Of a stretch of DNA of 34,851 nucleotides, positions 1-34,851 are shown piece by piece. Numbering within the stretch: the first letter of the stretch is position 1; every line of letters starts with the position of its first letter. The notes beneath the pieces are model-generated. The model worked only from the letters and a program-made list of their open reading frames with translations, was not told the DNA's origin and ran no database searches. The position numbers and the translations under genes were made by a program. The DNA comes from a virus: positions 1 to 34,851 of the IMG/VR virus record IMGVR_UViG_3300044521_000192; one strand, 5' to 3'.

Positions 1-1128
1 ATGGAAATCACAGTCTACAAACGACACGCGAGCGATTGTGAGCACAAGGCGGACCGGGCGTACCGCCGTTGTACTTGCCGCATGATGCTCGAATGGTCTT
101 TCGACGGCAAACGGACCCGCCAGTCCGCCAAGACGCGCTCTTGGGAGAAAGCCGAGCAGAAAGCACGCGCTCTAATGCAAGACGCGCACGCTCGTGCCAT
201 CGGTCAACCGGTCAAGTGTTCCGAGGCGTTCACTCTTGACGCCGCCGTTGGTATGTTTACCGCCAAGAAAAGCGGCAAGCACAAAGAGACCAAGCGGAAA
301 TATACAACCACGCTCACCCGGCTCACGGAATGGGCGGTCAAGAACGGCAAGCACTACGTTGCCGATATTACCGAGTCCGACCTTGAGAAGTATCAAGCCT
401 CATGGACGAGCCTCAAGAGCAACTATGCCAAGCGGAACGAGCAAGAGCGGCTCCGGGCGTTCTTTCGCTATTGCTGTGCGTCCGCCGAGATTAAGCTCCC
501 GCACAATCCCACGTCACAACTTGAGCATTTCAACACAACGAGCCAAGAGCCGGAGGACCCATTCACGGCGAAAGAATACGCGGCTATTGTGGCGGCGGTT
601 GACCGGGTTGAGAGCTTTGACGGCAAGACGGCGGAACGCATGAAAGCTCTCATTGCGGTCATGCGCTATGCCGGTCTCGCAATTCAGGACGCGGCAATCC
701 TTGAGCGGGACGCAATCACTCCCGGCAAGGTTGGGAAAAAGCCTTGCTACTTTGTGAGCATTCGCCGGAGCAAGTCTCATACGGGCGTCAATAACGCAAT
801 CCCGAAAGAGGTAGGAGACGCACTCCTCACGGTTGCGAACGGCAATAAGAAATACGTCTTTTGGAGCGGCAACGGCGAAGCGGTCACGGTTGCCAAGGAC
901 TTCTCACACAAGCTCAAGAAAGTCTTTGACAAGTCCGGTGTCTCCAATGCTCACAGTCACAGATTCCGCAAGACCTACGGCGTTGACTTGCTCACTCATG
1001 GAATACCGCTCAACATGGTCTCCAAGGCGCTCGGTCACCGCAATACGGTCATCACGGAGCGGCATTATCTCAAGTGGGTCCCAAAGCTCCAAGAGCAGCT
1101 AGCGGCGGAGATTGCAAAGACATGGTAG
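1..1128 (+). CDS. int: Tyrosine-type site-specific integrase
   Basis: Phage integrase that would catalyse recombination between phage and host attachment sites. The 375-residue length is normal for the family. The N-terminus (about residues 8-60) has a Cys/His-rich start (CEHKADRAYRRCTC) followed by an arm-type DNA-binding region; a SAM-like core-binding domain spans about 78-175; the catalytic domain covers about 185-370. Visible catalytic residues are R222 (MRYAGL), K258 (RRSKSH), H320-x-x-R323 (HRFRKTYG), H346 (LGHRNT) and the nucleophile Y356 (ERHYLKW). All are present, so the enzyme should be active. The window begins at its ATG, so its promoter and ribosome binding site are out of view. 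Its stop overlaps the start of the next gene, implying co-transcription. An attP would be expected just upstream of base 1 and cannot be seen. Confidence 0.95.
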   Translation: MEITVYKRHASDCEHKADRAYRRCTCRMMLEWSFDGKRTRQSAKTRSWEKAEQKARALMQDAHARAIGQPVKCSEAFTLDAAVGMFTAKKSGKHKETKRKYTTTLTRLTEWAVKNGKHYVADITESDLEKYQASWTSLKSNYAKRNEQERLRAFFRYCCASAEIKLPHNPTSQLEHFNTTSQEPEDPFTAKEYAAIVAAVDRVESFDGKTAERMKALIAVMRYAGLAIQDAAILERDAITPGKVGKKPCYFVSIRRSKSHTGVNNAIPKEVGDALLTVANGNKKYVFWSGNGEAVTVAKDFSHKLKKVFDKSGVSNAHSHRFRKTYGVDLLTHGIPLNMVSKALGHRNTVITERHYLKWVPKLQEQLAAEIAKTW

Positions 1129-1613
1129 CGAGCTTACAGGCAAGAGCAGACCACGAGACGGGACACGTTGTACTTGGATTGGCGCTCGGTTGCCGGGTTG
1201 TGTCTGTTGACGTACATCAACACGGTCTAGAGCGCGGCGGACGGACACAGTATGACGGCAATCCGAGTGACTGTGAGCACGCGCTCATATCGAGAGGCGG
1301 CTTGCTCACGGAAAAGCTCGTTGAGGCCGAATGGGACTCGGCTCATGTTTTGGAACTCATCCAAGGCGTTGAGGATGACATAGGACCGGAGTACAGCATC
1401 CTCACAGACTCAGAGATTGGGACAGACCAAGAGCACGCGAGCGAGTATGACGGGAAATGCGGTGTACATTCCGGCGTTGAGCATGACCGGCAGACCGTTG
1501 CGCTCCTCATGGAACACCGTGCCGAGCACGAGCGAATCAGCAGAGAGCTTTTCCGCCGCAACGAGCTTGACGAGGCAACAATCCTCCGCCTCTGGAATAA
1601 CCAGCCGGTTTAG
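1122..1613 (+). CDS. Stand-alone M41 (FtsH-type) zinc metallopeptidase-like protein
   Basis: This 163-residue protein carries the zincin motif HETGH at residues 11-15, inside a stretch (HETGHVVLGLALG) that matches the HEAGHA helix of the FtsH/M41 peptidase family. Further M41-like segments follow in order: ISRGGLLTEKL (like the GGRLAEE helix), GVEDDI with D86 in the place of the third zinc ligand (GAxNDI in FtsH), and a C-terminal helix ending TVALLMEHRAEHERI...LDEATI, like the end of the FtsH peptidase domain. There is no AAA ATPase and no membrane segment. The ATG at 1122 overlaps the integrase stop (ATGGTAG), with GGAG at 1107-1110 upstream. A role in protein turnover, for example of a repressor or host factor, is inference from its position beside int. 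An ImmA-like protease is the main alternative, but the C-terminal match favours M41. Confidence 0.7.
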   Translation: MVASLQARADHETGHVVLGLALGCRVVSVDVHQHGLERGGRTQYDGNPSDCEHALISRGGLLTEKLVEAEWDSAHVLELIQGVEDDIGPEYSILTDSEIGTDQEHASEYDGKCGVHSGVEHDRQTVALLMEHRAEHERISRELFRRNELDEATILRLWNNQPV

Positions 1614-1869: not shown

Positions 1870-2082
1870 ATGCAAGAAGTCCAACCCATGCTCACAACTA
1901 GGGAGGTCGCAGTCCGTCTCGGTATCGGACGGGAGGCGGCGCGGAAAATCATGTCAACAACCAAGGGAGTAATCACGCTCCCGCCCGTCAACGGGACTGG
2001 CAAGAATGCCACTCGCCGAATGCCAGAGCGAGTTTTAGAGGCGCTCGTTGCGAAGCACAGCTACAAGGGAGGACGGCAATGA
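1870..2082 (+). CDS. Excisionase/AlpA-like helix-turn-helix protein
   Basis: A 70-residue protein with one compact DNA-binding domain: MLTTREVAVRLGIGREAARKIM (residues 7-28) reads as a MerR/AlpA-type helix-turn-helix, followed by a basic wing (TGKNATRRMPERVLEALV). Excisionases of this size bend DNA beside the integrase and set the direction of recombination; AlpA-like proteins can also regulate transcription. The ATG at 1870 is preceded by AAAGGG about 8 bases upstream. Its stop overlaps the start of the next gene (ATGA), so the two are translationally coupled. It follows a long structured leader with an operator-like site at 1651. It could be the excisionase or the regulator of the operator family; the sequence does not decide. 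Confidence 0.6.
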   Translation: MQEVQPMLTTREVAVRLGIGREAARKIMSTTKGVITLPPVNGTGKNATRRMPERVLEALVAKHSYKGGRQ

Positions 2083-2675
2083 GCAAGAAACGATTGAGCA
2101 ATGCTGAGTTGGCCGCGAAGCTCGAAAAACAATGGGATGACTATTACGCGGAGCTAGCAAAGCCGAAAGCGCCGGAGCCGGTCATTGAGGTACACGTCCA
2201 AGCTGCGCCGGTCAAGCAAGCCGAGCCGGAGCCGGTCAAGACCGAGATGCAACTCAACGCCGAGCTAAAGAAGGCAGAGTTTGACCTCGGCTTTCACCGC
2301 AAGAACCTCGGCAAGGAATGGACCGATAAGCAGAAACAGAAAATCAAACGGCTAAAGCTAGACGTTAAGAGTGCCGTGAGCCGGGAGAGAAGTGAGGCGC
2401 GTGCTAAAGCTCAAGCCGAGCGGCTAGCAGCGAAGCTAGGCGAGCAAGAGGCGAGGCGGCTCAAGAGTCAGAGTGTCCGCCTACTCGAAATGCTGAAAGA
2501 GAAACCAAGGACCACAGTAGAGCTTGCGTCATACTTCCCACGGTACGGCGCACGAGTAGGCGAGCTAGTGACAATCGGATGGGACATTCGCAAAACACCG
2601 CTCACAGGCGGGACATACCTGTACACGCTACATGCTCCAACGTCAACCCCATGCGAGGAGCATGTAGGCTCATAA
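2079..2675 (+). CDS. Coiled-coil protein with C-terminal winged-helix domain
   Basis: Not assigned to a named family. The 198 residues divide into an N-terminal charged helix (1-25), a Pro/Glu/Val-rich linker (about 28-55), a long Lys/Arg/Glu-rich coiled coil (about 58-130) and a C-terminal domain (about 132-187, SVRLLEMLKEKPRTTVELA... GWDIRKT...GGTYLYTL). That last part has the pattern of the small winged helix-turn-helix found in phage replication or regulatory proteins: helix, turn (TTVELASYFPRYGARVGELVTIG), then a beta hairpin wing. The gene overlaps the previous one by ATGA and is followed by a strong terminator at 2717, so it ends the integrase-side operon. A DNA-binding regulator or a replication accessory protein are both possible. 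Confidence 0.55.
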   Translation: MSKKRLSNAELAAKLEKQWDDYYAELAKPKAPEPVIEVHVQAAPVKQAEPEPVKTEMQLNAELKKAEFDLGFHRKNLGKEWTDKQKQKIKRLKLDVKSAVSRERSEARAKAQAERLAAKLGEQEARRLKSQSVRLLEMLKEKPRTTVELASYFPRYGARVGELVTIGWDIRKTPLTGGTYLYTLHAPTSTPCEEHVGS

Positions 2676-2694
2676 GCTCACTACTGCGTACAAG

Positions 2695-2708
2695 CCGCTA
2701 CACCGCTA
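2695..2708 (-). repeat. Dispersed repeat TAGCGGTGTAGCGG, copy 1
   Basis: First of five exact copies of a 14-bp motif made of two GTAGCGG-like units in tandem. Here it is on the minus strand, between a stop codon and the terminator hairpin. Other copies are at 18423, 19058, 24065 and 30579. Four of the five lie in the short gap after a stop codon. Confidence 0.6.
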
Positions 2709-2716
2709 CACTCACA

Positions 2717-2754
2717 GGCAGAGACGCCGCAAGGCGTTCTCTGCCGTTGTCTTT
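2717..2754 (+). terminator. Rho-independent terminator after the control operon
   Basis: The 29 bases 2717-2745 fold into a 12-bp stem with a single bulged T and a GCAA tetraloop (GGCAGAGACGCC / GGCG-T-TCTCTGCC), followed by GTTGTCTTT. It lies 42 bases after the stop codon of the 2079-2675 gene and separates the integrase-side operon from the next transcription unit. Confidence 0.7.
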
Positions 2755-2937
2755 ATGGAATCCTACCCGCCCCACGCTCTGTTTATATACATACCTGTTA
2801 ATACCCACAGATAAGCCTATAAACATCTCAGCCTATAAACTCACCCGGCGCGGACGCCGCTTGGGAGCGGGGGTCCGCTCATCCGAGAATGTGACCGAAA
2901 ACAGATGGTCATTTTCCCACGTATTTATATATACATC

Positions 2938-2990
2938 TTGGGGAGATTGCACCGTGACACCGGGCGGTGTATCATTGGGGAGATTGCACC
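2938..2990 (+). repeat. Two 16-bp direct repeats flanking an operator
   Basis: TTGGGGAGATTGCACC occurs at 2938-2953 and exactly again at 2975-2990, a 37-bp period. The inverted repeat ACACC-gggc-GGTGT (2957-2970) lies between the copies. The first copy holds the possible -35 box and the second covers the likely transcription start. The arrangement suggests a second DNA-binding site class at this promoter. Confidence 0.6.
2947..2975 (+). promoter_or_regulatory. Promoter with operator copy 2, for the gene at 3013
   Basis: A possible sigma-70 promoter: TTGCAC (2947-2952), a 17-bp spacer, and TATCAT (2970-2975). The spacer contains the operator-like palindrome ACACC-gggc-GGTGT (2957-2970; full site 2954-2973), which overlaps the -10 box by one base. 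A protein bound here should block polymerase. The expected start near 2982 gives a leader of about 30 bases to the ATG at 3013. The rest of the 2676-3012 gap holds the terminator, an AT-rich stretch around 2780-2840 and 2920-2936, and a GCGGAC/GTCCGC inverted repeat (2850-2855/2873-2878), but no gene. Confidence 0.5.
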
Positions 2991-3012
2991 TTGAGCGCCG
3001 GGAGCGCCTCGA

Positions 3013-3381
3013 ATGGGACGGAAACGCAAGCACACGAACAAGTACAACCGGGTCCTCACCGGCTTGCTACCCGGTCGGACCGTGGGCGGTAGTGCTCACG
3101 AGGGTGTCATTACTGAGGTAGAGAAGGCACGAGACAAGGACGGTCACCTCTACGTGTGGGTCCGTTGGATTGGCTGTGATGCGTCCTGTCCCGATTGCCA
3201 CGGTGAGCCGAAACGTCATCGCTATGACAAGATACAGCGAGGCGAGGTCAAATCTTGCGGACGCCTCAAGAGAAAACTCCGCCGCGAGTATCTCAAGCAA
3301 AAGACCGCTCACCCGTTCATAGACGCCGCTACAGGTAAACCGATACCCGCAAGCGCTCGCCTCCGAAAACCCCGCCTCTAA
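3013..3381 (+). CDS. Small basic zinc-knuckle phage protein
   Basis: A 122-residue basic protein of unknown function. The order of elements is a Lys/Arg-rich start (GRKRKHTNKYN), a beta-rich segment (EGVITEVEKARDKDGHLYVWVRW), a Cys cluster (CDASCPDCHGEP) and the motif RGEVKSCGRLKRKLRREY. Small phage proteins with an SCGCL(R/K)R motif after a short beta domain are common; here the second Cys of that motif is Arg, so any zinc site must use the upstream cysteines. ATG 3013 has GGAG about 9 bases upstream. It has its own promoter with an operator-like site and is followed by another promoter, so it is probably a single-gene transcript. Nucleic-acid binding is likely; a precise role cannot be given. 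Confidence 0.6.
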   Translation: MGRKRKHTNKYNRVLTGLLPGRTVGGSAHEGVITEVEKARDKDGHLYVWVRWIGCDASCPDCHGEPKRHRYDKIQRGEVKSCGRLKRKLRREYLKQKTAHPFIDAATGKPIPASARLRKPRL

Positions 3382-3395
3382 CCTGCCTCGAAATA

Positions 3396-3415
3396 GGTAC
3401 ACCGGGCGGTATAAT
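3396..3415 (+). promoter_or_regulatory. Promoter -10 box fused to operator copy 3, for the HNH gene
   Basis: GGTACACCGGGCGGTATAAT ends in a perfect TATAAT (3410-3415) and shares GGTACACCGGGC exactly with the site at 31482-31501 read on the minus strand. No convincing -35 box lies 16-18 bases upstream, so the promoter may need an activator. The predicted start is near 3421, leaving a leader of about 78 bases to the ATG at 3499. Confidence 0.6.
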
Positions 3416-3417
3416 AG

Positions 3418-3502
3418 TCATAGGTGGGAACAACTAAGCCGGAGAGGACCTCCGAATCATTGCCTATCCTCTCCGGCTTGAGGTCCTAAGAGGCACCTAT
3501 GA
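3418..3502 (+). promoter_or_regulatory. Nested stem-loop leader that can mask the HNH start codon
   Basis: A perfect 13-bp stem AAGCCGGAGAGGA/TCCTCTCCGGCTT (3436-3448/3467-3479, 18-base loop) sits inside an outer 9-bp pairing TCATAGGTG/CACCTATGA (3418-3426/3494-3502). The outer helix includes the ATG at 3499 and the spacer after the AAGAGG ribosome binding site (3488-3493). An RNA starting near 3421 keeps at least 6 of these 9 pairs. No T run follows, so translational control is more likely than termination. Confidence 0.5.
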
Positions 3503-4413
3503 TTGATGCAAACGGCGTGGAGTTCACTCCCGAAAAACCATTACACCCGGCGAAAATACCTCGTAGAGCGTGGATGTGTCGGCACAAGGACACCGCGCAC
3601 AAGGCACTAGGACTGTGCTCCAAGTGTTACAGGGCAAAGATACGGCGCGATAACGGCATCAAGCCGCGAATCAAGCAAGCGGTGACAGCGTGTGAGCACA
3701 CGGACAGACCTCACGTAGCTCACGGTCTTTGTAGAGAGTGCTACATGCGTTACCGCTACCGTAAGGACAGACCGAACGCTAAGCCGTTTCAGCCACACTC
3801 AACGCCTATGCTCACGCGGTTTATGGACCGCGTAGAGGTTCAACCTAACGGTTGCTGGTTCTGGAAAACCGGAGCCGCTCGCAAGCCGAAAGAGCAAGGG
3901 TCTTACCCTATCTTTGTGGACCTCGCCAAGTACGGGCGGTCACCGGTACACGCGGTCAAGTGGGCATACGAAAACATACGCGGACTTGAGGCTCCGAAAC
4001 GAGATAGCGGATTAGAGCTATCGCATACGTGCGAGTCCGGCTCAATCTGTGTCAACCCAGACCACGTTACAGCGGAGACGCACAAAGAGAATATGCAACG
4101 GAGCCTAGAAACGGCACAGCGCAGCGCTGCTAACGCTCGCGCTCACATTAAGCCAAAGCCTGTACAGACGCATTGTCTCCGAGGTCACGCTAGGACGCCG
4201 AGTATGCGAGGCAAGCGTTGTTATATCTGTATGTATGAAGCACGTAAACAGCGTAACACTCTCCGCGCTTGGGTAAAAGCGATTGAGACGGGCAAGCCTA
4301 TGAAGCGTGCCAGAGGATACAAGAATTACGTACCGTCCGGCGTCCTCACACGCGGACCGGCTCCGATTTACACCGTCAACGGTCCCGTAAATGCTGTCTC
4401 CGCCTCATACTAA
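3499..4413 (+). CDS. HNH homing-type endonuclease with zinc-knuckle repeats
   Basis: A 304-residue nuclease. Two related N-terminal knuckles, CRHKDTAHKALGLCSKCY (about 27-44) and CEHTDRPHVAHGLCRECY (about 74-91), precede an HNH domain (about 104-205) of the phage HNH_3 type. That domain has FMDRVEVQPNGCWFWKTGA, a conserved HAVKWAYE helix, and the active-site run LSHTCESGSICVNPDHV with H176, N186 and H189. A third knuckle (THCLRGHARTPSMRGKRCYICM) and a basic tail follow. Such proteins nick or cut DNA at defined sites and are usually free-standing homing endonucleases. ATG 3499 has AAGAGG 5 bases upstream. Its own promoter, operator and start-masking leader suggest tightly held expression. No intron or intein host gene is evident. 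Confidence 0.85.
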   Translation: MIDANGVEFTPEKPLHPAKIPRRAWMCRHKDTAHKALGLCSKCYRAKIRRDNGIKPRIKQAVTACEHTDRPHVAHGLCRECYMRYRYRKDRPNAKPFQPHSTPMLTRFMDRVEVQPNGCWFWKTGAARKPKEQGSYPIFVDLAKYGRSPVHAVKWAYENIRGLEAPKRDSGLELSHTCESGSICVNPDHVTAETHKENMQRSLETAQRSAANARAHIKPKPVQTHCLRGHARTPSMRGKRCYICMYEARKQRNTLRAWVKAIETGKPMKRARGYKNYVPSGVLTRGPAPIYTVNGPVNAVSASY

Positions 4414-4492
4414 ACAGTATCAGCAAGCCGCGCTAGGCATAGACGCGCTTTCTCTTTCCTACCAGCTTGTTTCCGTCCGGTGACGAGCATAG

Positions 4493-4526
4493 CAACGGCG
4501 AGTGACCTCCCGGTTGCTCGCCGTTG
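4493..4526 (+). other. 10-bp inverted repeat between the HNH and Com-like genes
   Basis: CAACGGCGAG (4493-4502) and CTCGCCGTTG (4517-4526) form a perfect 10-bp stem with a 14-base loop, ending 15 bases before the ATG at 4542. There is no T run after it. It could be an unusual terminator for the HNH gene or a structure affecting translation of the next gene, whose AAAGGA ribosome binding site starts at about 4532. Confidence 0.5.
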
Positions 4527-4541
4527 TCTCACAAAGGATTT

Positions 4542-4739
4542 ATGACGTTGAAAGTCACAAAGGGTAAAGCAATCATCACGGACACCGGTCTACGCTGTGA
4601 CCAACCGCATAAGTATGACAGCACGGAGCGGTGTAACAAGCTACTGGCAAAGCTCAACAAGAGCGGCGTAGTAGCAGGATGGTTTCGCTGTGAGCGTTGT
4701 CACGCCGATTGCGAGATTGAGGTGGTCAATGCTCAATAG
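4542..4739 (+). CDS. Com-like zinc-ribbon protein, paralogue A
   Basis: A 65-residue protein with the pattern GLRC-x(n)-RCNKLLAKLNKSG...FRCERC. This resembles the Com family of phage Mu, small zinc-ribbon proteins in which CNKLL and CxRC bracket the metal; Mu Com binds mom mRNA and activates its translation. It shares GLRC, CN(K/R)L(L/I)AK, an AG-x-F-x-C-x-x-C end and an EV tail with the gene at 5303, so the two are paralogues. The ATG at 4542 is preferred over an upstream in-frame TTG (4524) because AAAGGA lies just before it, although spacing is short. No mom-like acetyltransferase is visible. RNA or DNA binding is inferred from the family. Confidence 0.55.
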   Translation: MTLKVTKGKAIITDTGLRCDQPHKYDSTERCNKLLAKLNKSGVVAGWFRCERCHADCEIEVVNAQ

Positions 4740-4768
4740 CGGACAGGTTATAGAGGTCCTTGTCACGA

Positions 4769-5296
4769 ATGCCGGGTAATGCTCAATCTTGGGAGGACTT
4801 GCTCACGAGCTTAGGTCTAGGAATGTGCGCCGGTAGAGACTCGCGCATCATGTACTTTGGCGACATGCCAAGCCGCCGAGATGACGAGGACACTGACCCA
4901 AGCGGCTACTATCCGCGCTCGATACCGTTTGACTACTCGGACAGATTCAAGCTAGCGGACGGTCACATTTATGCGAGCTTTCTACGGCGCGGCTCAAAGC
5001 ACAAGGCTACAACGCTCGAAAAGATGAGCAATGCTCACAAGGCGTTGTATGACGCCGGTAGAGTAGCTCCGTGGAAAGGCGTCACCGGCGCTCACCATCC
5101 GCTTTACGGATTTACTCACTCGGATGCTACTAAGCAACTCATAAGCGAGAAAGCAAAGGCGAGACCACGTAAACCGCTGTCCGAGGAAACGCGCCGCAAG
5201 ATTAGCGCACGGTTGACCGGTATCAAGCGGTCACTAGAAACAAGGCGCAAGGTATCAGACGCCAACCGGAGACGTTATGCCAACCCGAGCGCCTAG
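4769..5296 (+). CDS. NUMOD3-repeat protein, probable homing-endonuclease relative
   Basis: A 175-residue protein whose C-terminal half is built from NUMOD3-type DNA-binding repeats: GFTHSDATKQLISEKAKA (about 114-131), PLSEETRRKISARLTG (about 134-150) and KRSLETRRKVSDANRRR (about 152-168). These modules normally sit at the end of GIY-YIG or HNH homing endonucleases. I see no GIY-YIG or HNH active site in residues 1-110, so this may be a degraded nuclease, a novel nuclease domain, or a protein that uses only the DNA-binding module. The ATG at 4769 is chosen over TTG 4760 because the AGAGG at 4752-4756 is too close to the latter, though 12 bases is long. It lies between two Com-like genes, as an inserted homing element might. 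Confidence 0.6.
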   Translation: MPGNAQSWEDLLTSLGLGMCAGRDSRIMYFGDMPSRRDDEDTDPSGYYPRSIPFDYSDRFKLADGHIYASFLRRGSKHKATTLEKMSNAHKALYDAGRVAPWKGVTGAHHPLYGFTHSDATKQLISEKAKARPRKPLSEETRRKISARLTGIKRSLETRRKVSDANRRRYANPSA

Positions 5297-5302
5297 GATT
5301 CT

Positions 5303-5569
5303 ATGACTCGTCATTCCGTAATCACCAAGGGTAGAGGATTCATTTTCCCCGGCGAGTCTGGCTCTCAAGGTTTGCGTTGCAAAGCGGAAATCACCGTAAC
5401 GCGACACAACCGCGAGACCGGCGCGAAAGAGGAGCGGATTGAGTCCTGTAATCGGCTAATCGCAAAACCTAACCGAGACGGCGAGCTTGCCGGTGAGTTT
5501 TCCTGTCCCAAGTGTAAGCAGATTCTAGAGGTCAAGCTCAATGCCAATGAGAGCGCCGAGCGCGTGTAA
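5303..5569 (+). CDS. Com-like zinc-ribbon protein, paralogue B
   Basis: An 88-residue paralogue of the gene at 4542. It has GLRC (about 23-26), a longer charged insertion (RHNRETGAKEERIE), then SCNRLIAKPNRDGELAGEF and CPKCKQILEVKL. Four cysteines in two pairs fit one zinc ribbon. The insertion between the first Cys and the CN motif is about 12 residues longer than in paralogue A. The start is ATG 5303, with AGGA shortly upstream, just after the NUMOD3 gene. Its end overlaps the next gene, whose ribosome binding site lies inside it. As with paralogue A, nucleic-acid binding is the family expectation and the target is unknown. Confidence 0.55.
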   Translation: MTRHSVITKGRGFIFPGESGSQGLRCKAEITVTRHNRETGAKEERIESCNRLIAKPNRDGELAGEFSCPKCKQILEVKLNANESAERV

Positions 5570-5906
5570 CTTTCCAGGTTGCGGCGTTGCCACAACAGAC
5601 GGATATTGTCCCGCTCACAAGACGCAAAGTCCCCGCGCTCAATATGACCGTCAACGCGATACGTTACAACCGTGGCGGCGTTGGTATGACTTGGTAATCT
5701 GGAAAAGCATTAGGAAAGTGATTTTACAGCGTGACCCGATATGCAAGGCGTGTGACCGTGAGCCGTCAACCGAGGCGGACCATAAGCAACCGTTTCTAGG
5801 CGTATGGTCACTCTTTGTTGACCTCGGCAATATACAGGGTCTATGCAAGCCGTGTCACAGTAGAAAGACAGCAACCGAGGACTCAACCTTTGCCGGAGCA
5901 CGCTAA
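5541..5906 (+). CDS. Packaging-associated HNH endonuclease
   Basis: A 121-residue HNH protein. An N-terminal knuckle (CNFPGCGVATTDGYCPAH) precedes a classic HNH fold: KVILQRDPICKACDREPSTEADHKQP with D80-H81, then N97 (DLGNIQGLC) and H106 (CKPCHSRKT), plus CxxC zinc pairs. Small HNH proteins of this kind placed just before the terminase genes are common in cos-type siphophages, where they assist terminase in DNA cleavage and packaging. The gene overlaps the end of the Com-like gene by 29 bases, with AGAGG about 9 bases before ATG 5541; ATG 5547 is an alternative. It is followed by 336 non-coding bases rich in hairpins and then the glycosyltransferase and terminase genes. Confidence 0.85.
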   Translation: MPMRAPSACNFPGCGVATTDGYCPAHKTQSPRAQYDRQRDTLQPWRRWYDLVIWKSIRKVILQRDPICKACDREPSTEADHKQPFLGVWSLFVDLGNIQGLCKPCHSRKTATEDSTFAGAR

Positions 5907-6101
5907 CCCGCTACCCCAAGGACTCACAAAAGAGGCTAGCCTTACAGGACGCTCTAATCCGCTGATAAGACAGGCATTAGGGTAGGGGTATCTAGGTTAC
6001 TCAACGCTCGTCCTCGCCGTCCGCCGGGGCCTAACGTACACACTCCCGCACTTGTAAAACATTACCGGGACGCGACTAGAAACACATTGAGAGCAGCTCA
6101 A

Positions 6102-6231
6102 GGGTCCTAACGGGACCCGGATACGCCGCTCGCCGGAGCCTAACCGCTCCGGTCCGCTTTCCCCGAGTAATCCTCTCGGGACCGGACGCCTCGCTAGCGT
6201 CCTCTTGAGCCGGGGCATTCCGCCTCGGCTC
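6102..6231 (+). other. Array of five hairpins upstream of the packaging genes
   Basis: The non-coding stretch 5907-6242 (336 bases) contains five successive stem-loops: GGGTCC/GGACCC (6102-6107/6113-6118), CCGGAGC/GCTCCGG (6133-6139/6146-6152), CCCGAG/CTCGGG (6162-6167/6175-6180), GGACGC/GCGTCC (6184-6189/6197-6202) and GAGCCGGGGC/GCCTCGGCTC (6207-6216/6222-6231, with one G-U pair). Loops are 5-7 bases. No T runs follow. The sequence CCTAAC recurs at 6030, 6106 and 6139. This is the natural place for a cos site between the HNH protein and terminase; a structured RNA or a packaging/termination site are alternatives. I see no gene in the gap. Confidence 0.5.
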
Positions 6232-6242
6232 TCAGAGACTCT

Positions 6243-6965
6243 ATGACCGACACAATGACAGACCAACCGCAAGCCGTTGCTCTCATGCTCACGGCTAACC
6301 GGCACAAGTACATTGAGCTTGCTCTTGATTGTTTCGAGTCTCAGACATGGGACAACAAGCTCCTACTAATCCTAGACAACGGGACGGAGCCGGTTGAGGA
6401 CTTGCTCAATCAACGGTACGCCACAAGGCGTGCAGACTCCGCAATCGAGTATTACCGTTATAACTCTAACCCTCACCTTACTCACGGCTCTCTAATGAAT
6501 ACGTGCGCCTCTTACGCCGCGCCGGGAGACATTCTCTTTGCGTGGGACGATGACGATTGGTCCGCGCCGGAGAGAATGCAAGACGAGATAACCCGCCTCA
6601 TAGAAAACAAGAGCGAGGTTACCGGCTATCAAGAGATTCTGTTTTACAACATGAAGGACGGCAAGACGTACAAGTACCACTACACCGGACCCGGCATGTA
6701 CGCAACCGGTACGTCTCAATGCTTTACTTACGATTGGTGGAAGGACAACCCGTTTCCTGAAAAGCCGCGAGGCGCGGACGGAGACTTTAGCCGCCGAGCG
6801 TATGAGGCGGGTAAGCTAATCACGGTCCCCGGCGTGGGAATGATGGTAGCACGCTCACACGCGGACTCTACCTGTCCTCCGCCTCTTGGTCAAGGTCAAT
6901 TCCCCGGCTACTCCCGCGAGCTTTTCCCGCCTAGATTCTTTGAGGACATAAAACGATATGAGTAA
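6243..6965 (+). CDS. GT2-type (GT-A fold) glycosyltransferase
   Basis: A 240-residue protein with the layout of family 2 glycosyltransferases: an N-terminal nucleotide-sugar-binding strand (AVALMLTANRHKYIELALDCFESQTW), an LLLILDNGT strand, then FAWDDDDWSAPERM with the metal/sugar-nucleotide acidic motif at D102-D105. The acceptor half includes a Cys/Trp segment (TSQCFTYDWWKDNPFP) and a possible catalytic acidic pair (RGADGDFSRRAYEAG). No signal peptide or membrane segment is seen, so it acts in the cytoplasm. It directly precedes and overlaps (8 bases) the terminase small subunit, an uncommon place for a glycosyltransferase. It might modify DNA, a virion protein, or host surface precursors; the sequence cannot decide. 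Confidence 0.75.
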   Translation: MTDTMTDQPQAVALMLTANRHKYIELALDCFESQTWDNKLLLILDNGTEPVEDLLNQRYATRRADSAIEYYRYNSNPHLTHGSLMNTCASYAAPGDILFAWDDDDWSAPERMQDEITRLIENKSEVTGYQEILFYNMKDGKTYKYHYTGPGMYATGTSQCFTYDWWKDNPFPEKPRGADGDFSRRAYEAGKLITVPGVGMMVARSHADSTCPPPLGQGQFPGYSRELFPPRFFEDIKRYE

Positions 6966-7464: not shown

Positions 7465-7472
7465 GCGGGACT

Positions 7473-9167: not shown

Positions 9168-9189
9168 TCCTGATACTAGATAGGGTTGC

Positions 9190-9363
9190 ATGATAATTGA
9201 CCTTTCCGACAGCGCCGCCGTACTCGGCGGTCTTTGTATCCTCGCGGGTCTAGTTTGCCTCGGCGTACCGGGTTTCCTCATTCTCGCCGGTTTCGCTCTC
9301 TCCGGCGTGGGTCTCTTCTCCGCCGCTCGTAAGGCGTCCCGCTCCTCAAAGGATTCTAAGTAA
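9190..9363 (+). CDS. Small membrane protein between terminase and portal
   Basis: A 57-residue protein, almost all hydrophobic: two close membrane segments (about 10-27, AVLGGLCILAGLVCLGVP, and 28-43, GFLILAGFALSGVGLF) then a basic, Ser-rich tail (ARKASRSSKDSK). AGGG lies a few bases before ATG 9190, and its TAA overlaps the portal ATG (TAATG), both signs of a real gene. Small membrane proteins in this position occur in several HK97-type phages, but their role is not settled. A holin-like function is conceivable but not supported beyond topology. Confidence 0.6.
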   Translation: MIIDLSDSAAVLGGLCILAGLVCLGVPGFLILAGFALSGVGLFSAARKASRSSKDSK

Positions 9364-22012: not shown

Positions 22013-22013
22013 C

Positions 22014-24078: not shown

Positions 24079-24087
24079 ATAGACACT

Positions 24088-27900: not shown

Positions 27901-29075
27901 ACCCCGGTGACGTTGTAAACTTTGTCTATAACGGTCTCACTCTAGCCGGACGTGTGTCCGGCTCTATGATTGGTCAAAACTTCGCAACCGCTCTAGAGAT
28001 TACGAGCGAGGACAGCAACAACTATCTCAGCACGGCGGCGGGTACGGACAATGACGGATTCCAAGGACAGACGCTCACCGGTCTAGCCGCGTCTCTGCTG
28101 TGGCTCTTTGATATGCCGTATCTCTCCGATACGGACGCGGACGCCTCGGGAAACCTCGGCTATTACTTCGCAATGAATCCGCAAGGCTCCGGCACATGGG
28201 GAGCGGGAGCACTTTACTCCTCAACGGACAATATGTCTTTCTCCCAAGTGGGAGCGAGCGCAACCGGTCTAACCTACGGCATTGCACAGAACGTGCTAGG
28301 CGCTCCGCGCTCGCCGTTTACGTGGGACAATGACAACACGCTAACCGTTAACTTGCTCAACGGCACGGCTCCGGCGAGTGACACGGAGTTTAACGTCCTC
28401 AACGGCGCTAACGCGGCTATCCTGTATCCCTCGCTTGAGGTCATACAGTTTACAACCGTCACGCTTAACCTTGACGGGACGTACACGCTCTCCGGGTTAC
28501 TCCGGGGACGGCGCGGTACGGAGTGGGCGGCTCATGCTACCTCGCACGCGGCGGGAGAGTTTGTTGTATTCCCGCTCTCGGGCGGAATGGTACACGAGCA
28601 AGTGTCTCTTGCGGCTTTCAATCAACAACGCTTTTACAAGGGCGTAACGGTAGGCTCGGACCTCAACAGCGCAACGAGCAAGCCGCTAACGTTAATCGGA
28701 CGTGACCTAATGCCTTACGCTCCGGCTCAATTCGGCGGCGTTAAGAGCGGCTCGGACATTATTCTTACTTGGGAGAGGCGTACACGCCTCGGCGGGGACC
28801 CTTGGTACAACGGTACTAACACCGTACCATTAAACGAGGACAGCGAGGGCTATGACGTTGAGATATTGAGCGCGGCGGGAGGGACGGTCAAGCGGACATT
28901 CTCCGGCTTAACCTCGCCAACCGTGACCTACACGTCCGCGCAACAGACTACGGACTTCGGAAGCACTCAAAGTGACATTGCGGCTAGGGTCTATCAAGTC
29001 TCCGCTCAAGTAGGGCGTGGATTCCCTACCGAGAATGACCATTGTCTAACCGGAATGGCGGTAAGTGGCGGCTAA
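24903..29075 (+). CDS. Large tail-tip protein (GTA gp15/Phage-tail_3 type) with inserted carbohydrate-binding and propeller-like regions
   Basis: A 1390-residue protein. The first 50 residues are the usual hydrophobic Ala/Gly start (LALTVAGAVIGALLALPTGG), and the next segment (MQISSSAPGAVIPLLYGSMRLGGNIIWATKIKE) is a family landmark. At about 149-185 lies a CBM5/12-like module: PWSSSTNYVTGDVVSRNG then HWYKAKTSNTNEDP. Residues about 280-640 contain repeated beta units of the type LWIGF..., LKKIDPYTF, LFVYDTAVLDLVGY, LLKFDTATGAVID, suggesting a beta propeller. The family core resumes around 800 (FYLDRLGNNGIGCDEIVLDVCEKAGLD), followed by LTIPESDLGLAQDKAE and a C-terminal part with LSGLLRGRRGTEW, a GTA-type landmark. 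It would be the host-contacting tail tip. Confidence 0.85.
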   Translation: MARLALTVAGAVIGALLALPTGGMSVAMGMQLGILAGSLAGALIFPGKGTHTYGPRLNDMQISSSAPGAVIPLLYGSMRLGGNIIWATKIKETTTTTSQSAKGGPTVKQTTYSYSISFAAAFCQGPATISRIWGDAKLIYDTTGNKNLGPWSSSTNYVTGDVVSRNGHWYKAKTSNTNEDPEGAGVFGSLLGQLFWEPTAAPSTSTSAIAKNIHVVPTFYRGTETQLPDPLMVSHDGAAKTPGYRGVCYAVVEDFPLEDFGNRLPNIRAEVNSLAVTNYPAYSFDKANIPDPDNGNAVEVQWLEPWIVDRTRQVGYCISTRARVIQRVNLITNAIEAQGLVDASLYGLREDVDYNAVLTQAHNITIDGDGFLWIGFISTMYKHDDRTAHAGDLGDPYDRTTFGAATNYWLKKIDPYTFKAVAQIQLNNSQGVQRPDPASYPGYGLACAYGRYLLAGCYDFHTNTAGLFVYDTAVLDLVGYSPISDGSWYGASSGYPLHDPETNIVYVLSFVGNSSIPGSGDYATITRVNLNGGVTHFVSDAPRYIDVYSWSVPWSAADGVAMVGWLDPTDKTILMLTNVGKLLKFDTATGAVIDSIGDIDNHVAEINKVSGVSTQPFELLGGYPGWQSGQNYGTLDTGVLWLPGPGFGQSSAAQAFVWSVFIAGAMSHLDPDFVDPSSNGTVQATQGEVQSFITYLAANPSVNDSLTASLQNNYWFLDMLAQATLASDASLKDAAVWLNAHWTDQVATTAMYVFRSFRTSDLSVIASYNTKNFISGFNLGEVTFGNVGFAFDPNSNSVLAPGYTLNKAYHFYLDRLGNNGIGCDEIVLDVCEKAGLDPSRVDVSAIAGIAVQGYPVTSLQSGKDIITALAQYGFFEGRETDFTLSFVPRGQESVLTIPESDLGLAQDKAELTETIGQEQDTPKTVEVLHIDPAQDYQQGQQVKVRHSRTTASLNKTSISLPIVMSSLQAAQLADRIIWTAENERRAYKTSLYKASYMLLDPGDVVNFVYNGLTLAGRVSGSMIGQNFATALEITSEDSNNYLSTAAGTDNDGFQGQTLTGLAASLLWLFDMPYLSDTDADASGNLGYYFAMNPQGSGTWGAGALYSSTDNMSFSQVGASATGLTYGIAQNVLGAPRSPFTWDNDNTLTVNLLNGTAPASDTEFNVLNGANAAILYPSLEVIQFTTVTLNLDGTYTLSGLLRGRRGTEWAAHATSHAAGEFVVFPLSGGMVHEQVSLAAFNQQRFYKGVTVGSDLNSATSKPLTLIGRDLMPYAPAQFGGVKSGSDIILTWERRTRLGGDPWYNGTNTVPLNEDSEGYDVEILSAAGGTVKRTFSGLTSPTVTYTSAQQTTDFGSTQSDIAARVYQVSAQVGRGFPTENDHCLTGMAVSGG

Positions 29076-29133
29076 ACACAGCCTCACAAAATCCTAGAAG
29101 GGCGTGACCCTCATGTAGAAAAGGACATTCAAC

Positions 29134-30291
29134 ATGAGCAACACACCCAACCTAAATATCTCGCATATCGCTAGTAGTCAGAACCAAAAAGAGGTCACGG
29201 CTAACACTGCGTTCGATGACCTCGACACTGCTATGACGGACACGCTCACGGTTGACCTCTCAACGGCGAGCGGCGGCGCTATCACGCCCACAACGTCAAC
29301 CGTGTTGCTAGCGTTTGCGCTCAAGTTCACTAACCAAGCCTCGCCGGACGCGGACATCACAGTCAATGTCCCTAGCAACAAGCACTTTTACCGGCTGCAT
29401 CACGCCGGGTCTGGCTCACACAATGTCATTGTCAAGGTATCGGGACAGACCGGGGTGACCCTCGCTCCCGGAAATGTGCGGTTAGTCTATTGCAACGGGA
29501 CCGATGTTGTTGTTGCGGAGAACGTCTACGAGCTACTTGCCAACAAGGACACGGACGGCACTCTAACCGCAAATTCGGACACAAAGTACGCAAGTCAAAA
29601 AGCTACTAAAACATACGTTGACGCAGCGGTTGCGGGAGCAGGTGCTATCAAGACCGTAACGGTTGACATCTCATCCTCGGACCTCATCAACGCTGGCACT
29701 ACTCCTATTGTGCTTGTCGCGGCTCCCGGCGCTAACAAAATGCTCATTGTTGTGAGCGCCTCATTGCTGTACAAGTACAACTCCGTTGCGTACAACAGCA
29801 ACGCCGGTGTGCGTCTTGAGTATGACAACCTTGGTCCGTTTGGCTCAACACTAGTTCTGCCTAATGACTTCTTTGAGACGGTTGGAGGCAACAACATAGG
29901 CGTGTTTACTCTCCCGTTCGGCGAGGTCTCCGTTGCCTCCCTTGGTTCAACTAATCTACCGCTCACGCTCGTTGCTAATGTTGCTTGCGGACCTATTCTC
30001 AGCGCATCGTTAGACGTGGGAGGGTCCGGCTACGCTCCGGGAGATACCGGCACGATTACAAGCGGCGGAGCAGACGCTACTTACGTTGTTGACACGGTTG
30101 ACGGCGGCGGAGCGGTCCTTACGTTCCACTTGTCCGGCAACGGCTCTCACTACGAAGTATCAACCGGCAACGCTACCTCGGTTGACACCGGAGGCGGTGA
30201 CGGCGGTTTTACCATTGACATCGGCTCTGTGACCCTCGGCAACGGGACGGCAAGAGCAACAATTTGCTACTACACTATTGCAACAACATAA
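29134..30291 (+). CDS. Tail fibre protein
   Basis: A 385-residue fibre. The N-terminus (TPNLNISHIASSQNQKEVTANTAFDDLD) resembles the DUF2793-type start of tail-associated proteins. A beta-sandwich (about 35-145) follows, then a linker with SDTKYASQKATKTYVDAAVAG, a classic fibre shaft motif. Next comes a second beta domain, and finally a Gly-rich region (VGGSGYAPGDTGTITSGGADATYVVDTVDGGGAV) of a kind common in phage fibres. It is the last structural gene and lies directly after the tail tip. AAAAGGA lies about 10 bases before its ATG. Receptor recognition is the likely role. Confidence 0.75.
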   Translation: MSNTPNLNISHIASSQNQKEVTANTAFDDLDTAMTDTLTVDLSTASGGAITPTTSTVLLAFALKFTNQASPDADITVNVPSNKHFYRLHHAGSGSHNVIVKVSGQTGVTLAPGNVRLVYCNGTDVVVAENVYELLANKDTDGTLTANSDTKYASQKATKTYVDAAVAGAGAIKTVTVDISSSDLINAGTTPIVLVAAPGANKMLIVVSASLLYKYNSVAYNSNAGVRLEYDNLGPFGSTLVLPNDFFETVGGNNIGVFTLPFGEVSVASLGSTNLPLTLVANVACGPILSASLDVGGSGYAPGDTGTITSGGADATYVVDTVDGGGAVLTFHLSGNGSHYEVSTGNATSVDTGGGDGGFTIDIGSVTLGNGTARATICYYTIATT

Positions 30292-30300
30292 GGAATCGTC

Positions 30301-30561
30301 ATGCTCATCATTCCCATACTAGCTCTTTTTCTTCCCTACGTAGGATTCGTCTCCGCCGCTCTCGCTGTCTTTGCTTTCTTTCGGGACATGCGCCGGGACG
30401 TGTCCGACATTAAGACCAACCATCTACCGCACTTGCTAGAGGCAACACAGGACCAAACCAAAGAGCTACGGGAGATGCGCTCAGACTTCCGTACATATTT
30501 CGCCAAAGACGGCGGCGTGACGGTTACGGTGAGCGGAAACAACAAAGCCGAATCCCGGTAA
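30301..30561 (+). CDS. Small membrane-anchored protein, possible holin-like
   Basis: An 86-residue protein with one or two N-terminal membrane segments (about 2-27, LIIPILALFLPYVGFVSAALAVFAFF), then a charged helical part (RDMRRDVSDIKTNHL, EATQDQTKELREMRSDFR) and a short tail. AAGGA lies close before ATG 30301. Its position after the fibre gene is where lysis genes often start, and a holin or anti-holin would fit its size. No endolysin follows, so this remains a guess; a superinfection or anchoring function is also possible. Confidence 0.5.
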   Translation: MLIIPILALFLPYVGFVSAALAVFAFFRDMRRDVSDIKTNHLPHLLEATQDQTKELREMRSDFRTYFAKDGGVTVTVSGNNKAESR

Positions 30562-30595: not shown

Positions 30596-30922
30596 TTATG
30601 CCTTAGCCGTCTCCGCCTCTTTCGGATGTTTCTTGTAATAGTCCGCTCGTGCCTTCCGGCTAGGCTCCGCAATCTTCCCGGCTTTATGGAGCTTATGCAC
30701 GTCCGCCCATACCCGCTTGCTCGCCGCCGATACTTTCTTGTTGGCGGCGCTCGTGCGTTTCTTGGTTGCCGCTTTCACCCGGCGAGCGCGAGCCGGAGCC
30801 GGGCCGTCCTTAGAGAATGCGGCTTTAAGCTCCGCAATCTCTCCGTCTATACGGTCTCGCTCTTTCTGCAAACCTGCTAGCCGCTCCCTCACTTGCTGTA
30901 CTAGCTTCCCTGTCGTAACCAT
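30596..30922 (-). CDS. Basic coiled-coil protein, possible nucleoid-binding cargo
   Basis: A 108-residue minus-strand protein. Residues 1-36 form a coiled coil (LVQQVRERLAGLQKERDRIDGEIAELKAAF), followed by a Lys/Arg/Ala-rich chain (ARARRVKAATKKRTSAANKKVSAASKRVWADVHKLHKAG) and a charged end. The layout, an oligomerising helix plus a basic tail with repeated (K/S)AAxK(K/R), is that of small histone-like or H-NS-like proteins; such KxxSAAxKxxWA tails are common in some soil bacteria. GGAGG lies about 8 bases before its ATG. It follows the secreted-protein gene by 32 bases, so both are likely read from the promoter near 31480-31509. Confidence 0.55.
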   Translation of the reverse strand: MVTTGKLVQQVRERLAGLQKERDRIDGEIAELKAAFSKDGPAPARARRVKAATKKRTSAANKKVSAASKRVWADVHKLHKAGKIAEPSRKARADYYKKHPKEAETAKA

Positions 30923-30954
30923 TCCCTTTCCCTCCGCGTTTGGATTGTACTCCT

Positions 30955-31452
30955 CTATTTGCTCGTTTCACATTCTTTCGGCTTATCACCGGAGAGGCTC
31001 CGCAAGGCAACTCTCCATGCCGCAATACAGCCGTCTATCTGCTCAAGGTCTTTCTTGTCTTTGTCTAGCGCCTTGCTCGCGCTATCGTTAGCATCGTTCG
31101 CGTGACAATCGGGATGCTTCTTTGCACATGGCACAGCCTTGTCCGCCGCCGCCGTGTTGGTAGCGAGCAAGAATGTTGACAGCGTGACAGGACGCATCAC
31201 GGACAGGAATTTTATCTCTTTAACAACGGCGGTCTCAGAGTCCGAGATTCCAGCGGCGTCCGCGTCATTGATTGCAGTTTGTACGGTCTTATCGGGACCC
31301 ATTCCGGTGTTGTCTGAATTCTTGATTGCGACCAGCGCGAGGTTCGCGGCTTTCGCAAACTCGGCGCTCACTGCTTTCTTGGTTGGCTCTTGAGCACTCA
31401 CTGACAGCGCGAGCGCAAGGACTGCTAGGACGGTTGTGATTGTCTTTTTCAT
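30955..31452 (-). CDS. Secreted cargo protein of unknown function
   Basis: A 165-residue minus-strand protein with a clear signal peptide: MKKTITTVLAVLALALSVSA, then QEPTKK, with cleavage expected after Ala20. The mature part is alpha-helical and Ala/Asp/Lys-rich (FAKAANLALVAIKNS, TAINDADAAGISDSETAVVKEI). It has four cysteines (VPCAKKHPDC, DGCIAAW, KECETSK) that could form two disulfides in the periplasm. The start at 31452 is supported by GGAGG just upstream; earlier codons in frame lie across the promoter. It is a typical moron: reversed, self-promoted, at the end of the structural genes. A role in surface change or exclusion of other phages is inference only. Confidence 0.65.
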   Translation of the reverse strand: MKKTITTVLAVLALALSVSAQEPTKKAVSAEFAKAANLALVAIKNSDNTGMGPDKTVQTAINDADAAGISDSETAVVKEIKFLSVMRPVTLSTFLLATNTAAADKAVPCAKKHPDCHANDANDSASKALDKDKKDLEQIDGCIAAWRVALRSLSGDKPKECETSK

Positions 31453-31474
31453 TTGTCCTCCGTTTGCCCTACAT

Positions 31475-31509
31475 TTGACATGGTACATTGCCCGGTGTAC
31501 CTTTGCCAA
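31475..31509. promoter_or_regulatory. Overlapping divergent promoters sharing operator copy 4
   Basis: Plus strand: TTGACA (31475-31480), 17 bases, TACCTT (31498-31503), reading to the R-M gene. Minus strand: TTGGCA (complement of 31504-31509), 18 bases, TACCAT (complement of 31480-31485), reading to the secreted-protein gene. Between them lies the operator-like site 31482-31501, whose ends GGTACA/TGTACC are a perfect 6-bp inverted repeat. Read on the minus strand it shares GGTACACCGGGC with the site at 3396. One bound protein should affect both promoters. Confidence 0.6.
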
Positions 31510-31551: not shown

Positions 31552-34500
31552 ATGGTTCGCAAGCGTAAGCGGCGCAATACCAAGGCGATACATCCTCTGC
31601 TATCATCGCGCTTTGGCATGGCTGAAACGCTAGAGCAACGCACAAGGGAAACCTTGCGGGGTTACCTCCGCGAGGTCAAGACCCTCCCGAACGAGTCCGC
31701 CAAGCGGTCACGGTTTGCAGCGCTCATAGCAGAGCTATTTCCCGGCACAAACGCCGTTACCGAATATGCGCGAGGCGTGGAAAAACTCATCCGTATCACC
31801 CGCCCGGAGGGTGAGAAGCGCGGACGAGCGGACGCCTATTACGGCAACGTCATCATTGAGTTTGAGAAGTCTCTCGCCGCTACCCTTGGGGAAGCCGAGG
31901 GACAGTTGCGCGAGTACGTAGCCGGGACATGGCAAGCGGACAAAGGCTCTCCTCGTCCGCTTATTGCTATCGCCTCGGACGGTGTGAATTGGAATATCTA
32001 CCGCCCGGTGTTGCTAGCCGGAGCCAAGCCGACACCGGAGACAGTGACCCTTGAGTTGCTCCGACCGTTCAAGGTTGCCGAGGACTCGTTAAGCGAATTT
32101 TGGCTTTGGTTGACGAGCCTACTTTTTAGACCTCAACAGGTAGAGCCAACCGCCGAGCGTTTTCAATTGGACTTTGGGACATGGAGTCCTCTCTATCGTG
32201 ACGGACTGGCGGCGCTCAAGAGAGCGTGGGCAAGTGTTAGCGCCGAGCCGGAATCAACGCTCGCCTTTGAGACGTGGCAACGATACCTCACAGTCACCTA
32301 TGGGCGTCTCGCGGAGACGGCAACCGCTCAAAAAGACGCCGAGACCGGACAGGAAATATCCGAGCTTGAAAATCTATTCTTGCGGCACACGTACCTAGCA
32401 AGCATTGCTCGCTTGCTGATATGGGCGTCCCTTTCGCAAGGCAAAGGCAACGATGACCTCCGCAAGGTTGCAAAGGACGTGCTCACCGGGCGGTATTTCG
32501 AGTCCAAGAGACTAGCGAACCTCGTAGACGACGACTTTTTCCATTGGCTCCGCAATCCGACCGCTGAAAAGATGCTAGCTCCTACGTGGGAGCGCATCCT
32601 CTCTCATTTGACCGAATATGACCTCTCCCTGATACGTCAAGACGTTCTCAAGGGCGTCTATCAGCAATTGATTGACCCCAAGGACCGGCATGACCTTGGA
32701 GAGTATTACACTCCCGATTGGCTCTGTGAGCGCATGGTTGCGGAGTTGCTCCCGGCTCACGGTTATAAAGCCGTTCTAGACCCTAGTTGCGGGTCCGGGA
32801 GTTTCCTCCGCGCCTCAATCACTCACTTTCTAAAACACAACACAGATGGAACGGACAACGAGCGGCTCCGTCTCGTCCTACGCAACGTGCAAGGGATTGA
32901 CATTCATCCGGTAGCGGTGACCATCGCACGCGCTACTTACGTCCTCGCTCTCGGAAAGCTCGTCAACGCGGCGCGAAAGCCAATACAGATACCGGTCTAC
33001 CTCGCGGACTCTCTATTCCTACCGAGAGAGGTTGAGGCTAGTCTCATAGAGAAACTCAGCGGCGTTGAAATTACCTATGGCGCTCGCAAGGACCGTAAGA
33101 CCGTAGTTATGCCGGACATGCTTATTCACATGCCGGAAGTGTTTGACGATTCGATTGCAGCGTGTACGGCTATCGCGGAGGAGCACGCAAGGACCGGCAA
33201 GGATACGCGCAAGACAATGGAGAACCATCTCGCGCAATCTGTGCCGGAGTTGACCAAGGTTCTTGAATACCAAACTGTGCTTGACGCTCTATGGTCATTC
33301 ACGGAGGGATTAGCCCAGCTAATCCGCGAGCGCAAGGATTCTATTTGGTCTTTTATCATTCGCAACAGCTACCGTCCCGCAATGCTCAAGGGACAGTTTG
33401 ATTTAATCATCGGCAATCCGCCTTGGCTTTCTTACCGCTACATTGCGGACCCGGAATATCAGGACGAAATCAAGCGCAGAGCGATAGACCGTTACCGAAT
33501 CGCGCCAAAGTCTCAAAAGCTCTTTACACAAATGGAGCTAGCAACGGTCTTTCTAGCTCACTCAATGGCGGTGTTTGCCGGTCCTAATGCTCGCCTCGGC
33601 TTTGTCATGCCGCGTAGCGTCCTCACGGCAGACCAACACGAGAAGCTCATAAAGCGGGAGTACAGCGCTCCGTTTCGCCTCAAGGGATATTGGGACTTTT
33701 GGGAAGTGACGCCGCTTTTCAACGTCCCTTGTTGTGTGCTTTTCGCGCAACGGGACACAACACACGGAAGTCCGAAAGACCCGCTCCCGGTAAAGACTTG
33801 GAGCGGAACACTCCCGGCGCGGGATGTAGCTTGGGACGTAGCAAAGACGAGGTTGAGCGCCAAAGACGAAGAGGCTCGCGTTATCTATCTCGGCTCGCGT
33901 TGTGCGTTGTCAACCGAGGCGGGAGCGTCTCAGCAAGGCAGAGCGAGCAGTTACAGCAAGTCATTTCAGCAAGGCGCTACGATTGTCCCGCGTAGCTTCT
34001 ATTTCGTTCGGGTTGAGGGTTTGACCGGCGAGCCGAACTTGTCAGACGAATATTGGGCGGAGACGGACCCGGAGCAAGCCAAGCACGCACAGCCGCCTTA
34101 TGACGAGGTAACCTTAAGCGGACGGGTAGAGGGACGATTCCTCTTTACAACCGCTCTCTCGCGGCATCTGCTACCGTTCGCAACTCTCAAACCCGCAACC
34201 GCGCTCTTGCCGGTTGAAATAAAGCATGGCTCGTTACGCATCATTAAAGCGGACGCCTTGATTCGTGACGGCTCCCGGCTCTTTGGAAAATGGATGCAAG
34301 AGGCGGAACGAATTTGGATTGAGAAACGCAAGGACAAAGCAAGTAAGCAGACCGTGTATGAGAGGTTGGACTACCAGCGCGAGCTAACAACCCAAGACCT
34401 CTCTCACCGGCATCTCGTGCTCTATAACGCCGCTGGTACTAATGTCTCCGCCGCCTATTTCGACCGAGGCGAATATCCGCGTTTCATCTGCGAGCACAAA

Positions 34501-34851
34501 ATTTATTGGGCGGCTTTCTCGGACCCGCAAGAGGCTCACTATGTCACCGCCGTCTTAAACTCCGATACGGCAAACGAGGCAATCAAGCCGTTTCAGTCAA
34601 CGGGTCTCATGGGAGAGCGGGACATTGAAAAGAAGCTCTTGGAAGTGCCGATTCCGACATTTGACGCCGCGAATAAAACCCACAAACGACTAGCAGAGTT
34701 AGGCGGACAGGCGCGTGACGAGGCGGTGAGGGTCTTGCAATCCGGCGAGTTCCCGAGCGGCTCCGGTCTTGCCGGTCAGAGAGGTTTTATGCGCGAGCAT
34801 GTCAGCACGCTATTGCAGGACATTGACAAGCTCGTCCGCGAGTTGTGGTAG
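31552..34851 (+). CDS. Single-chain nuclease-methyltransferase (type IIG-like restriction-modification protein)
   Basis: A 1099-residue protein carrying cutting, methylation and specificity in one chain. Near the N-terminus, RADAYYGNVIIEFEKS has D94 and E103-F-E105 followed by K106, a PD-(D/E)xK-like nuclease site in an ExE form. A helical connector follows. The N6-adenine methyltransferase shows GEYYTP (384-388), DPSCGSGSF (D410 on), GIDIHP (D450) and NPPW (622-625). The C-terminal part (about 850-1080) has target-recognition features such as FICEHKIYWAAF and YVTAVLNSDTANEAIKPF. No helicase is seen, so types I, III and ISP are unlikely; PglX-type BREX enzymes lack the nuclease. ATG 31552 has GGAGG 9 bases upstream and lies after a good promoter, which rules out earlier in-frame starts; ATG 31618 is an alternative. 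The last base of the window is its stop. Confidence 0.8.
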   Translation: MVRKRKRRNTKAIHPLLSSRFGMAETLEQRTRETLRGYLREVKTLPNESAKRSRFAALIAELFPGTNAVTEYARGVEKLIRITRPEGEKRGRADAYYGNVIIEFEKSLAATLGEAEGQLREYVAGTWQADKGSPRPLIAIASDGVNWNIYRPVLLAGAKPTPETVTLELLRPFKVAEDSLSEFWLWLTSLLFRPQQVEPTAERFQLDFGTWSPLYRDGLAALKRAWASVSAEPESTLAFETWQRYLTVTYGRLAETATAQKDAETGQEISELENLFLRHTYLASIARLLIWASLSQGKGNDDLRKVAKDVLTGRYFESKRLANLVDDDFFHWLRNPTAEKMLAPTWERILSHLTEYDLSLIRQDVLKGVYQQLIDPKDRHDLGEYYTPDWLCERMVAELLPAHGYKAVLDPSCGSGSFLRASITHFLKHNTDGTDNERLRLVLRNVQGIDIHPVAVTIARATYVLALGKLVNAARKPIQIPVYLADSLFLPREVEASLIEKLSGVEITYGARKDRKTVVMPDMLIHMPEVFDDSIAACTAIAEEHARTGKDTRKTMENHLAQSVPELTKVLEYQTVLDALWSFTEGLAQLIRERKDSIWSFIIRNSYRPAMLKGQFDLIIGNPPWLSYRYIADPEYQDEIKRRAIDRYRIAPKSQKLFTQMELATVFLAHSMAVFAGPNARLGFVMPRSVLTADQHEKLIKREYSAPFRLKGYWDFWEVTPLFNVPCCVLFAQRDTTHGSPKDPLPVKTWSGTLPARDVAWDVAKTRLSAKDEEARVIYLGSRCALSTEAGASQQGRASSYSKSFQQGATIVPRSFYFVRVEGLTGEPNLSDEYWAETDPEQAKHAQPPYDEVTLSGRVEGRFLFTTALSRHLLPFATLKPATALLPVEIKHGSLRIIKADALIRDGSRLFGKWMQEAERIWIEKRKDKASKQTVYERLDYQRELTTQDLSHRHLVLYNAAGTNVSAAYFDRGEYPRFICEHKIYWAAFSDPQEAHYVTAVLNSDTANEAIKPFQSTGLMGERDIEKKLLEVPIPTFDAANKTHKRLAELGGQARDEAVRVLQSGEFPSGSGLAGQRGFMREHVSTLLQDIDKLVRELW

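Follow-up and report, generated by a model that had tools for sequence, protein, structure and literature searches.

A survey of ~4000 prokaryotic virus genomes found that the sites of orthodox Type II restriction systems are avoided, with complete or almost complete elimination in around one tenth of viral genomes; elimination is weaker in temperate phages, and viruses do not avoid the sites of Type I and Type IIG systems and very rarely avoid Type III sites (PMC6286503). In the HF1-group haloviruses (Serpecor1, Hardycor2, HF1, HF2), GATC is absent from seven isolates and CTAG has also been lost. Twenty-one 6-mer palindromes are missing group-wide, from which the authors infer diverse sequence-specific host defences (PMC7230728). 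Elimination of GATC from Staphylococcus phage K, attributed to Sau3A, is cited in PMC6532042.

The window analyzed here is a 34,851-bp viral contig with no known flanks, taken as a whole, and represents a tailed phage or provirus that carries an integrase and whose hosts are probably soil Acidobacteriota. An exact search of its 34,851 bases detected no GATC, confirming the claim of the initial annotation, while GATT (146), GATA (92) and GATG (44) are present, as it had also noted. Base composition predicts 132 occurrences and an order-2 Markov model 63, and 100 dinucleotide-preserving shuffles gave a mean of 111.7 (sd 10.6). Synonymous-codon shuffling of the window genes, which keeps both protein sequences and codon usage constant, yielded 73.4 ± 7.4 and never fewer than 49 (n = 200). 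The Markov and synonymous-shuffle nulls are conservative for GATC, since part of the effect is already built into the depleted trinucleotides and codons. Composition does not account for the absence of GATC.

The word was removed through synonymous choices, as site avoidance predicts. In the window genes, Asp is encoded by GAC every time the next codon starts with C (125/125); Ile never uses ATC when the preceding codon ends in G (0/118, versus 157/330 elsewhere), and Gly before TC never uses GGA (0/50, versus 219/762 elsewhere).

GATC is absent from the integrase, early, head and tail genes, the minus-strand cargo and the restriction-modification (R-M) gene (Table 1). This coverage had been correctly described, although the R-M gene, which had been placed on the minus strand, lies on the plus strand, leaving just the two small cargo genes on the opposite strand. 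GGCC is also absent from the Type IIG-like gene, against 14.4 expected. Endonuclease genes of homing type are part of the gene content of the window. Since every module is depleted, the R-M gene included, the cargo must either have been long resident or have come from a similarly purged element, which supports the proposal of long-lasting selection over the whole element, cargo included. Recent acquisition of the cargo was rejected, the R-M gene being as clean as the remaining modules. Full-length relatives of the Type IIG-like protein, ~34-35% identical, are found on plasmids of Cupriavidus, Salinibacter and Methylocystis. Searches of viral contigs with the R-M protein, the tape measure or the large tail protein, each alone, returned nothing close, and family searches with the minus-strand cargo genes gave no match.

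Table 1. Modules of the window, with observed versus expected word counts.
Module	Position	Strand	Content	GATC	Six-base palindromes
Tyrosine integrase	1..1128	+	PF00589, phrog_1	0 vs 2.9	3 vs 15.3
Early region	1870..6965	+	NUMOD3-motif protein (4760-5296); HNH endonuclease (5541-5906); glycosyltransferase-like protein (6243-6965)	0 vs 9.3 (early genes pooled, 1870-7464)	
Head region	6958..15716	+	Terminase small and large subunits, portal, head protease, HK97-type major capsid, connectors	0 vs 17.3 (seven genes, large terminase onward)	24 vs 120.3 (same seven genes)
Tail genes	15716..30561	+	Tape measure (19229-22012); tail protein (24903-29075)	0 vs 38.7	63 vs 220.9
Two small cargo genes	30596..31509	-	One with a signal-peptide-like start	0 vs 2.1	
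Type IIG-like restriction-methyltransferase	31618..34851	+	N6 methylase and Eco57I domain	0 vs 8.3	16 vs 52.7

GATC is the extreme case of a wider purge of short palindromic words. With 4-mer content held, the 64 six-base palindromes together occur 142 times in the window against 528 expected. Fourteen of the 24 six-base palindromes with an expectation of at least 8 are absent, versus only 4 of 1,404 non-palindromic 6-mer pairs at the same expectation. GGCC occurs 13 times (124-157 expected; ratio 0.07-0.11), CCWGG (CCAGG/CCTGG) 3 times (91 expected from base composition) and TCGA 30 times (62-178 expected). CTAG is not avoided (155 versus 130-143 expected), and CAATTG, GCTAGC, TCTAGA, TGTACA, GTTAAC, TACGTA, ACCGGT and TTGCAA are at or near expectation; as some palindromes stay near expectation, it is particular words that have been purged and not symmetry as such. 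When paired 3-bp arms were counted by the gap between them, observed/expected was 0.26 at gap 0, 0.77 at gap 1 and 0.87-0.97 at gaps of at least 4, a profile consistent with Type II enzymes but not with hairpins. The depletion of recognition words against both composition and codon nulls agrees with Type II site avoidance, as does the palindrome specificity seen in the 6-mer absences and the gap test, though some non-palindromic 4-mers are also low.

Comparison with the described systems shows that the phenomenon itself is already known, from phage K and the HF1-like haloviruses. The HF1 group and the window share GATC loss and the disappearance of many 6-mer palindromes. However, the former are archaeal myoviruses of haloarchaea whereas the window is a bacterial integrase-bearing phage, and CTAG, lost in the HF1 group, is kept in the window, where GGCC is avoided. 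The 155 CTAG sites, and a bacterial flank in the related record L146, place the window outside the HF1 group, to which it is alike in its working only. Phage K and the window have both lost GATC genome-wide; in phage K the cause is a known host enzyme, Sau3A, whereas in the window the loss extends to many palindromes, and neither DpnII- nor HaeIII-family enzymes turned up in the Acidobacteriota genomes selected for searching. Palindromic Type II sites are avoided in the surveyed viruses and in the window alike. Unlike the temperate phages of that survey, the integrase-bearing window is nearly purged, and the non-palindromic GTCG/CGAC is low too. The extent of the purge is notable because weaker elimination is expected of a temperate phage (PMC6286503).

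The integrase is 72-76% identical in two records, L145 and L146. The latter, of 44 kb, has long head- and tail-gene stretches in common with the window, and carries a tRNA-Ser at its start and, at its end, an MFS transporter gene that matches genes in three Acidobacteriota genomes at 74-80% identity. Because this flanking gene matches Acidobacteriota, they are the likely host group, the host of the window itself being read from L146. Genomes of the host group contain 5.3-6.9 GATC per kb (0.84-0.94 of Markov expectation) and have a six-base palindrome ratio of 0.77-0.87, and the 702-bp host flank of L146 has 8 GATC (11.4/kb) and palindromes as expected. The phage part of L146 has 0.65 GATC per kb (0.24 of expectation) and a six-base palindrome ratio of 0.37, and its palindrome avoidance correlates with that of the window (Spearman 0.65, p = 8e-6, 39 palindromes). 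A Markov count of this kind had been proposed as a check in the initial annotation; it locates the loss in the window and the related provirus L146, with the host group normal. Neither the host-group chromosomes nor the L146 flank shares the depletion, as avoidance predicts, the chromosomes tested being those of the probable host group. In L146, a minus-strand insert of 975 bp (L151:765-1739) holds 5 GATC, whereas the remaining 19 kb of that stretch hold 9, a difference to be expected if the purge has yet to reach newer DNA. In L145, GATC is nearly normal (0.70-0.82). Two tail-protein relatives, L231 and L230, have six-base palindrome ratios of 0.36 and 0.55, while their GATC is close to expectation or slightly lower, so that GATC loss is apparently specific to the lineage of the window and L146 and palindrome avoidance is wider.

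We consider it likely that long selection, exerted on infecting DNA by several enzymes of the host population, has rid the whole genome of the window of its Type II restriction targets. Several Type II enzymes, GATC cutters (DpnII/MboI/Sau3AI-like) among them, would cut incoming unmodified DNA, and the phage would meet many hosts, or host strains, with differing enzymes; target words would then be lost by synonymous replacement across every module. The initial annotation had likewise invoked selection and not composition, which the GATC content of the host group and the synonymous choices bear out, but a cause specific to GATC is too narrow, as many unrelated palindromes have been purged too. 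If correct, the genome would be a fossil record of restriction enzymes in past hosts, and its purged versus tolerated palindromes (CAATTG, TTGCAA, GCTAGC, TCTAGA, TGTACA and ACCGGT being tolerated) would predict the enzymes circulating in little-studied soil Acidobacteriota. The window also shows that near-complete elimination of sites, usually a trait of virulent phages, is within reach of an integrase-bearing phage.

Some observations run against this Type II account. The search for GATC-specific restriction enzymes, also proposed initially, found the DpnII family in 0 of 13 Acidobacteriota genomes, selected because they carry a related flank or integrase gene, and the GGCC-specific HaeIII family in 0 of 10 selected genomes. 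Across the phylum, DpnII-family genes occur in 9 and MutH/Sau3AI-family genes in 4 of 376 genomes; Pfam families cover part of restriction-enzyme diversity, and these DpnII, MutH and HaeIII counts are weak evidence either way. Temperate phages are usually less completely purged (PMC6286503), and simple Type II avoidance does not predict low GTCG/CGAC, CTGG/CCAG and GAAC/GTTC. In the window, synonymous-shuffle ratios are 0.12 for GTCG/CGAC, 0.25 for CTGG/CCAG, 0.35 for GAAC/GTTC and 0.38 for GAAG/CTTC; the ratio for CCA/TGG is 0.44. GTCG/CGAC occurs 52 times in all of the window, nearly as depleted as GATC. In the window genes, Val is encoded by GTC in 3 of 217 cases before G but 55 of 122 before C, and Glu by GAA in 5 of 138 before C but 48 of 145 before A. 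L146 shows a weaker form of this depletion, L145 and the host group none. For the non-palindromic words (GTCG/CGAC, CTG/CAG words), it reflects either further defences or a separate codon-context bias. That a defence reading short non-palindromic words (chiefly GTCG/CGAC, but CTGG/CTGA and GAAC as well) selects on the phage beside the Type II enzymes seems rather unlikely; if true, a 4-base asymmetric target class would shape a whole phage genome.

We also considered attack on methylated GATC, in which sites methylated by Dam are cleaved by Type IV enzymes resembling DpnI or Mrr, in place of cutting at unmethylated GATC. D12 methylases (the Dam/DpnM fold family) score over the cut-off in 163 of 376 Acidobacteriota genomes, and Mrr acting on Gm6ATC has been described in Haloferax (PMC7230728). 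However, D12 methylases have many specificities, and such attack would account for GATC alone and leave the loss of GGCC, CCWGG and numerous 6-bp palindromes unexplained, making it an improbable cause. It is very improbable that the phage mirrors the composition of a host, or former host, lacking these words. Window codon usage is indeed odd, with CTG at 6% of Leu (47% in the inferred host group) and GAC at 85% of Asp, and the oddity falls in a gradient from the window through L146 and L145 to the bacterium. Against such an inherited signature, palindrome loss persists at fixed 4-mer content and GATC loss at fixed codon usage, and host-group genomes have near-normal six-base palindromes and normal GATC, on which ground host composition was rejected as the cause.

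The core words of phosphorothioation-linked defences (Dnd/Ssp) are GATC, GGCC, GAAC/GTTC and CCA. All four are depleted in the window (GATC 0, GGCC 0.07, GAAC/GTTC 0.35, CCA/TGG 0.44), and the integrase-sharing L145 carries SspB, SspC and SspD homologues in a row (L148:14154-19362). Selection by such a defence against its core words is nevertheless a very doubtful explanation: unlinked words are equally hard hit (CGAC 0.12, TCGA 0.19), loss of most 6-bp palindromes is not predicted, and L145, the carrier of the Ssp genes, has nearly normal GATC. Palindromes are inverted repeats, but their deletion through avoidance of hairpins or RNA structure is refuted by the gap test, hairpin-forming arms (4-8 base spacing) standing at 0.87-0.97 and adjacent arms at 0.26.

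The window combines GATC absence with general palindrome loss, which sets it apart from 45 further viral contigs that have a related terminase. Among these, only L047 and L039 approach its palindrome loss, both with normal GATC; their six-base palindrome ratios are 0.28 and 0.33. Two terminase relatives, L048 and L055, lack GATC but show no general palindrome loss. The idea that losing GATC is rare in itself was rejected: these two and L238, L239, L244, L248 and L251, all phage contigs unrelated or distantly related, also have 0 GATC versus 23-57 expected. The last five, viral contigs rich in AT (31-33% GC), have a weak tape-measure match; in them general palindrome loss is not strong and GATC stands at 0 versus 28-57 expected.
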